Part shown: piece by piece, positions 51,641-54,047 of the stretch
How the letters are laid out: each line of letters opens with the position of its first letter
Position numbering within the stretch: position 1 is the stretch's first letter
Notes under the pieces: generated by a model
Databases searched by the model: none
The model's input: only the letters and a program-made list of their open reading frames with translations
What the model was told of the DNA's origin: nothing
DNA from: Rhodospirillaceae bacterium
GTDB lineage: Bacteria > Pseudomonadota > Alphaproteobacteria > GCA-2746255
Length of the DNA stretch: 54,047 nt
Reading direction: 5' to 3'
Assembly (NCBI GenBank): GCA_002746255.1
Contig: NVWO01000032.1
Coordinates: 1 to 54,047, forward strand
Program-made: the position numbers and the translations under genes

Positions 51641-53131
51641 GTGGTTACTTCCAGTTCCGCTGAAACGGTGGCGAGGCCTGCCTTGCTTGATTTCCGACCC
51701 ATTCTGTTTGTTGTTGGTCTGCTTCTGACGACTCTTGCCGTGGCAATGAGCGTGCCGGCAATTGCCGATGCGTTGGTCGGGAATGCGGATTGGCTGATCT
51801 TTGCGATTTCTTCCGGGTTCACTCTTTTTGTCGGGGTGTCGCTTATCCTGGCCGGGCGAGCCGCCGAAATGCGGCTGAGCATCCGCCAGGCCTTTTTGCT
51901 GACGACCTTGAGCTGGCTGGCAGTCGCGATCTTCGCGGCCCTGCCGCTTGCCTTTTCGGATTTGGGGCTTTCCTACACGGACGCTTTCTTTGAATCGATG
52001 TCGGGTCTGACAACGACAGGTTCGACGGTGATTGTCGGCCTTGACGATGCACCGCCAGGGATTCTGCTTTGGCGGGCGCTGCTGCAATGGCTTGGCGGGG
52101 TCGGCATCATCGTGATGGCCGTGGCGGTGCTGCCGGTGCTCCAGGTGGGTGGCATGCAGCTTTTCCAGACGGAATCTTCGGACACGTCCGAGAAAGTGTT
52201 GCCCCGGGTTGCCCAGGTCATTACCGGCATTGCAGTGGTCTATATCGGTCTGACGGGGATTTGTGCCTTTTTGCTTTGGATCTGGGGGATGACGGGATTC
52301 GAAGCCGTTGTCCATGCCATGACGACGGTTGCAACGGGCGGTTTTTCGACATCGGACCATTCCATCGGCCACTTCAATAGCGCCGCGATCGACTGGACGA
52401 TTATCGTTTTTATGCTGCTTTCCTGTCTGCCGTTTGTCCTTTATCTACAGGCCGTTCGCGGTAATTTTCTAGCGCTGATACGGGACGGCCAGGTTCGCTG
52501 GTTCCTGGGTGCCGTTCTGATTTATGTGTCGGTGATGGCGATCTGGTTATGGGATTCTTACTACTACTCCTTTGGGGAATCCATCCGCCTTTCTGCGTTC
52601 CATGTCGTCTCGATCATAACGGGAACAGGCTATTCCACGGCAAGCTTCGACCTTTGGGGAAGTTTTGCGCTGATCGTTTTCTTCCTTCTTATGTTTGTCG
52701 GCGGTTGTGCCGGCTCAACAACATGCAGCATTAAAATCTTTCGCTATCAGGTGCTTTATTCGGCAATGAACGCGCAGGTTAAACGCCTTCTTCACCCCCA
52801 CGGTGTGTTCGTGCCCCATTACAATCGTCGCCCGATTCCGGAATCCGTTATTTTCTCGGTGTTGAGTTTCATCTTTCTTTTCATGATGTGTTTTGCGGCA
52901 TTGGCAATCGGGCTTGGCTTGCTTGGGCTTGATTTCCTGACGGCGATATCGGGCGCGGCGACGGCGATCACGAATGTTGGGCCTGGGCTTGGCAATGTGA
53001 TCGGGCCGGATGGCAGCTTCACCTTCCTTCCAGACACTGCGAAATGGTTGCTGGCCGCAGGCATGTTGCTTGGCCGGTTGGAGCTGTTTACGGTTTTGGT
53101 GTTGTTTGCACCGGGCTTCTGGCGCGGCTAA
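51641..53131 (+). CDS. trkH: TrkH-family potassium uptake protein
   Basis: The potassium-conducting subunit of a Trk system. The 496-residue membrane protein has the four pore-loop filter motifs: TTTGST, TVATGGFST, ITGTGYST and TNVGPGLG. The start is uncertain: GTG at 51641 has no good ribosome site and GTG at 51668 is an alternative. trkA is not in the window. Its stop overlaps the stop of the convergent gene (CTAA). Confidence 0.93.
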   Translation: MVTSSSAETVARPALLDFRPILFVVGLLLTTLAVAMSVPAIADALVGNADWLIFAISSGFTLFVGVSLILAGRAAEMRLSIRQAFLLTTLSWLAVAIFAALPLAFSDLGLSYTDAFFESMSGLTTTGSTVIVGLDDAPPGILLWRALLQWLGGVGIIVMAVAVLPVLQVGGMQLFQTESSDTSEKVLPRVAQVITGIAVVYIGLTGICAFLLWIWGMTGFEAVVHAMTTVATGGFSTSDHSIGHFNSAAIDWTIIVFMLLSCLPFVLYLQAVRGNFLALIRDGQVRWFLGAVLIYVSVMAIWLWDSYYYSFGESIRLSAFHVVSIITGTGYSTASFDLWGSFALIVFFLLMFVGGCAGSTTCSIKIFRYQVLYSAMNAQVKRLLHPHGVFVPHYNRRPIPESVIFSVLSFIFLFMMCFAALAIGLGLLGLDFLTAISGAATAITNVGPGLGNVIGPDGSFTFLPDTAKWLLAAGMLLGRLELFTVLVLFAPGFWRG

Positions 53132-53937
53132 GGCGCAACGCGGAAGCCGGACAGATGGGTCTGGATAGCGGCTTCCATCTCGCGGTCGAAGTCCTTTAAC
53201 AAATCTTCCGTTAAACGGAACCAGTAATCTTCGCGTTTGTTGATGCTTGCGTTCTCCGGGACGGTCTGGTCGCGGAAGGCCTTGGCCTCGGCAAAGGCGC
53301 GCCGTGTGCCCTGGGCATCGATGATTTCAAGGCGGGCTTCAAGGGTGGCGGTGTAACGGGCCCCTTGATCCACCGTGAAATAGCCGCCAATGCCGCCAGC
53401 CGTGGGAAGTTTTTCTTCGACCACCCTGGCGTCAAGGATCACGAAACGGGCAATTGCGCCGCCTGGTGCGCCCGCCGCCGTCAACCGGTCCGTGGCCCAG
53501 CGTTCCGCCGTTTTCATGGGCGAGGTCGGGAAAAGATGTTCGACGTTTGGCGTACGCATCGGCGGCGTGTACGCGCGCACAATTTCGATCGCGTCCACGT
53601 TGAGGCGAACGCCGCCTCGACAGAACGCGCTCCGGGTCGAGACTTCGACTTCCATGAGCGAGAGGTCGATTCGTTGAACCGTCTCGAAGAAGGGGACGCG
53701 GAACCCGCGGCCTTTGCCCGTCGCCGAGCTGATCATTCGGTAGCCGAGCCCGTTCTTGTTGTTGGCGCGGCCCGAGAACACGAGGAGCTCGTTAGGCCGG
53801 CATATGAACAGGAACTGCTTGACCATCCAGATCAGGCCGAGCGTGGCGATCAAGGTGGCGACGCTGCCGGCGACGACCGCGAAGAAAAGCTCCAAGCCGC
53901 CTTCCTTGGCAGCTAACAATAGAGGCAAACCGATCAC
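53128..53937 (-). CDS. Chimeric protein: SPFH/flotillin-like N-terminus joined to a lipoprotein-type C-terminal domain
   Basis: A 269-residue ORF that looks like two proteins in one. Residues about 13-45 form a membrane segment; about 45-117 resemble the start of the flotillin SPFH domain (FLFICRPNELLVFSGR, then FETVQRIDLSLMEVEV and GGVRLNVDAI). Past about 118 the flotillin pattern stops, and the rest (TPNVEHLFPTSP, AERWATDRL, VVEEKLPTAGG) resembles the C-terminal part of a conserved alphaproteobacterial lipoprotein without its lipobox. The flotillin coiled coil is missing. The start is GTG with a strong AAGGAGG. Gene fusion by deletion or an assembly join are both possible. Confidence 0.7.
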   Translation of the reverse strand: MIGLPLLLAAKEGGLELFFAVVAGSVATLIATLGLIWMVKQFLFICRPNELLVFSGRANNKNGLGYRMISSATGKGRGFRVPFFETVQRIDLSLMEVEVSTRSAFCRGGVRLNVDAIEIVRAYTPPMRTPNVEHLFPTSPMKTAERWATDRLTAAGAPGGAIARFVILDARVVEEKLPTAGGIGGYFTVDQGARYTATLEARLEIIDAQGTRRAFAEAKAFRDQTVPENASINKREDYWFRLTEDLLKDFDREMEAAIQTHLSGFRVAP

Positions 53938-53960
53938 TCAACCCTCCTTGGCTGATTACG

Positions 53961-53982
53961 AACGACCCCGGATGGGGTCGTT
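53961..53982 (-). other. Perfect 9-bp hairpin upstream of the chimeric gene
   Basis: AACGACCCC (53961-53969) and GGGGTCGTT (53974-53982) flank the loop GGAT. It lies 24 nt upstream of the GTG start, without a T-run on either strand. It may be an operator or a leader hairpin. Confidence 0.5.
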
Positions 53983-54047
53983 GCGAGAAGGCGCTCTCCC
54001 CGACCGTGAGTTGAGCGCTCTTGACTGAAAGTGTGTGGGAAACGCCA

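Follow-up and report, generated by a model that had tools for sequence, protein, structure and literature searches.

A hybrid open reading frame (ORF), part flotillin and part lipoprotein, had been noted close to where a metagenomic contig ends, and we confirmed that it is present. Comparison with other sequences indicates that it is almost certainly an inter-species assembly chimera rather than a real gene fusion. The window, meaning the whole stretch of DNA analysed, is the entire contig C32 (G000:C32:1-54047, 54047 bp). It belongs to a 2.1 Mb draft genome of 33 contigs that is rated 99.8% complete and 0.04% contaminated.

The hybrid ORF extends on the minus strand from 53937 to 53128 and encodes 269 amino acids. 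As originally predicted from the letters of the DNA, it carries a strong ribosome-binding site (GGAGGG, upstream of a GTG start), and its reading frame stays open through the join between the two parts. The ORF lies at the 3′ end of the contig, a position left unmentioned in the original prediction, and its start is only 110 bp from that end. Contig ends are where assembly errors are most expected. The features of this region are as follows.

51641..53131, plus strand: trkH-type cation transport gene (Pfam TrkH, 2.9e-58), convergent with the lipoprotein gene in L003, L004 and L005
53128..53607, minus strand: C-terminal part of a lipoprotein of alphaproteobacterial type, about 160 residues (76, 67 and 60% identity to three congeners; overlap with contig C22)
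53586..53607, minus strand: likely false-join zone, 22 bp (three-way comparison of C32, the planctomycete gene and C22)
53586..53937, minus strand: foreign 5′ part of a flotillin gene, encoding the membrane anchor and the first stretch of the SPFH/band-7 domain in residues 1-117 (100% identity to L017)
53938..54047, minus strand: foreign leader of the same planctomycete flotillin gene with GGAGGG, up to the contig end (100% identity to L017 2891-3000)

Composition and relatives of the hybrid ORF

The original prediction described an SPFH/flotillin start followed by a lipoprotein-type domain, and both parts were recognized in our searches. Residues 47-121 of the hybrid align to positions 4-69 of the 176-position Pfam Band_7 profile (Pfam accession PF01145) with 22.3 bits, just under the Pfam cutoff of 23.6 bits. 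The SPFH domain is thus incomplete, and the long helical C-terminal region of a flotillin is missing, with the lipoprotein domain in its place. NCBIfam and PHROGs searches with the hybrid protein returned nothing above their cutoffs.

Residues ~108-269 match a lipoprotein family encoded between argF and trkH, including its conserved C-terminal domain of ~155 residues. An intact lipoprotein gene is convergent with trkH in all three congeners, and the identities listed above refer to these intact genes. Two of the congeners (L004 and L005) have argF directly upstream, giving the order argF-lipoprotein-trkH, and the stretch from the third (L003) ends before argF. The lipoproteins of the congeners begin with a signal peptide that includes a lipobox cysteine, whereas the C32 copy has neither. 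We considered Pfam DMP19 as the family of the lipoprotein half and dropped it, as the match was below cutoff and, at E<=1, was missing in two of the three congeners. The lipoprotein of one congener, searched against PDB sequences, gave no significant match.

We found matches to the hybrid protein in 143 of 289 genomes sampled from the class, which gene content suggests is Alphaproteobacteria, the window's own genome counted. Outside the window no match starts before about residue 105, with one marginal exception (residues 82-256, E = 1.3e-6), and none of the 142 other matching genomes covers the flotillin anchor or the flotillin half. An established family of fused proteins, which would be expected to recur in relatives, is therefore exceedingly improbable: the architecture was looked for across these 289 genomes and no relative supports it. 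The true gene is an ordinary, widely conserved lipoprotein.

A planctomycete match for the flotillin half

We scanned flotillin residues 1-116 against a set of 84,980 species, each represented by one genome, and recovered a single relative, on contig JAESQQ010000786.1 of the Planctomycetota metagenome-assembled genome (MAG) NORP233 (locus L017). The scan reaches close relatives only, so a single match does not mean that such flotillins are rare. At the DNA level, 53586-54047 is identical to L017 at 462 of 462 positions, including the 110-bp non-coding leader. Beyond the join, identity between C32 and L017 drops to 30% over the next 200 bp, which is chance level.

The NORP233 flotillin gene (L017 3001-3864) shares its leader and first 117 codons base for base with C32 and then runs past the join as an ordinary flotillin. 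It matches Band_7 positions 4-173 with 80.9 bits and thus encodes the whole SPFH domain and more, whereas the C32 copy stops at about codon 117. An nfeD-like gene lies just upstream (its NfeD profile match is below the Pfam cutoff), and the locus is intact. A gene for NfeD next to a flotillin gene is the usual layout.

The flotillin-type start and the lipoprotein-type remainder share one frame, as they would if a deletion in the organism's own genome had brought a flotillin gene of its own together with the lipoprotein gene. We consider such a deletion next to impossible. Neither a second copy nor a leftover part of this flotillin turned up in the genome, which is 99.8% complete. The genome's other band-7 genes are just two neighbours on contig C8, both with complete Band_7 domains; from their arrangement they look like an hflK/hflC pair. 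Moreover, the flotillin piece exactly matches another phylum. To the extent that these data allow, the L017 match and the lack of a flotillin remainder rule out a deletion of this kind. The original prediction had left deletion and misjoin as alternatives; its suspicion of a misjoin was right, given the perfect L017 match and the continuation of the lipoprotein gene on another contig, described below.

The join and the continuation on contig C22

Searching the window's own genome, we found residues 108-174 encoded a second time, at the extreme end of contig C22. The last 193 bp of C22 match window positions 53607-53415 at 187 of 193 bases (97%), and the final 85 of these are without difference. 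On the flotillin side of the join, identity between C32 and C22 is 23%. C22 carries argF and then the start of the lipoprotein gene (...LALSVSAACTTPPPATNQ), which encodes a signal peptide and a lipobox (ALALACLCLALSVSAAC; lipobox SAAC). Since the C22 end overlaps the lipoprotein part of C32, the two contigs meet within the lipoprotein gene and together give argF-lipoprotein-trkH, with argF on C22 and the convergent trkH on C32. The true N-terminus of the lipoprotein is encoded at the end of C22, after argF, and the C32 copy has no signal peptide or lipobox because of the misjoin.

Agreement of C32 with the planctomycete sequence extends down to 53586, and agreement with the lipoprotein gene sets in at 53607, which places the join at 53586-53607. 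This interval overlaps the break within the SPFH domain that had been estimated near 53577-53601. Within it, the planctomycete flotillin gene and the C22 lipoprotein gene have 21 of 22 bases in common, the sole mismatch being at 53594, and both genes encode RLNV[DG]AI. These 22 bp are the likely point of a false join, and the variant of the lipoprotein gene followed by C32 may share the full 22-bp word with the planctomycete gene. In a de Bruijn graph with small k, two genomes can be connected by a common word of 22 bp.

C32 and C22 differ at six bases, namely 53594 in the join zone and 53581, 53568, 53553, 53521 and 53500, and three of the differences alter an amino acid. All six lie within 108 bp of the join and none occurs across the next 85 bp. 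From these differences, the sample seems to have contained the lipoprotein gene in two strain variants.

The five differences beyond the join zone count against a chimera, as the C32 end may derive from a different strain. Together with an ORF that is open through the join and has a start and a ribosome site, they would fit a rare real strain in which planctomycete DNA was very recently transferred and recombined into the lipoprotein gene and a flotillin-anchored hybrid is expressed. We regard such a strain as very unlikely. It would require zero differences in 462 bp between phyla, non-coding leader included, and the contig stops at that very place. The normal continuation is present on C22 of the same genome, and no relative carries the hybrid. 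Furthermore, such a hybrid would leave the lipoprotein with neither signal peptide nor lipobox, and most of the flotillin's SPFH domain would be gone.

As in an inter-species assembly chimera, each side of the join matches a different organism and has its own normal continuation, on L017 and on C22. We rejected a real domain fusion on the basis of the C22 continuation, the L017 identity and the class-wide matches. The fusion was originally proposed as a biological object that could really be made as a flotillin-anchored hybrid. That proposal is unsupported, as the flotillin half is Planctomycetota DNA and the lipoprotein start lies on C22.

We propose that the assembler walked from trkH into the lipoprotein gene and, at the stretch of ~22 bp, strayed into a flotillin gene belonging to a co-occurring member of the Planctomycetota. 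The contig would then have ended 440 bp past the crossover, and the correct continuation (argF and the lipoprotein N-terminus with its lipobox) would have been stranded as the end of C22. It is documented that metagenome assemblers can go wrong at shared k-mers and produce chimeric contigs (PMC7299287). In short-read metagenomes, unrelated genomes are joined by shared k-mers at a branch of the graph, as we propose here; C32 is no different from these known chimeras and would be an ordinary example, located where a contig ends.

The exact identity makes it likely that the window's genome and NORP233 come from one metagenome project. According to main-text passages of PMC9426424, the NORP genomes belong to a project on the North Pond subseafloor aquifer, and the new ones were assembled by three approaches. 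Because those main-text passages leave the assembler unnamed, a short common word in a de Bruijn-type assembler stays our inferred cause of the join.

Other contig ends of the genome

The opposite end of C32 lies in a repeat. Bases 1-421 match positions 267-676 of contig C14 (86%), and bases 115-304 match C14 1-190 in opposite orientation (84%). An ORF at 2-1249 (415 aa) has its first ~140 residues, ahead of a Bax1-I domain, inside this repeat region, which makes the start of that ORF doubtful. The start of C14 (L020/L021, 1-562) is itself a long imperfect inverted repeat (1-188 versus 375-562, 84%), which is either a real repeat family of the genome or another contig-end artefact.

The hybrid ORF on C32 calls for caution, as what is almost certainly a cross-phylum chimeric gene, its frame open and its ribosome site good, sits at a contig end inside a genome with such high completeness and low contamination ratings. 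When a fusion protein is predicted at the end of a MAG contig, it should be compared with the remaining contig ends of that genome.
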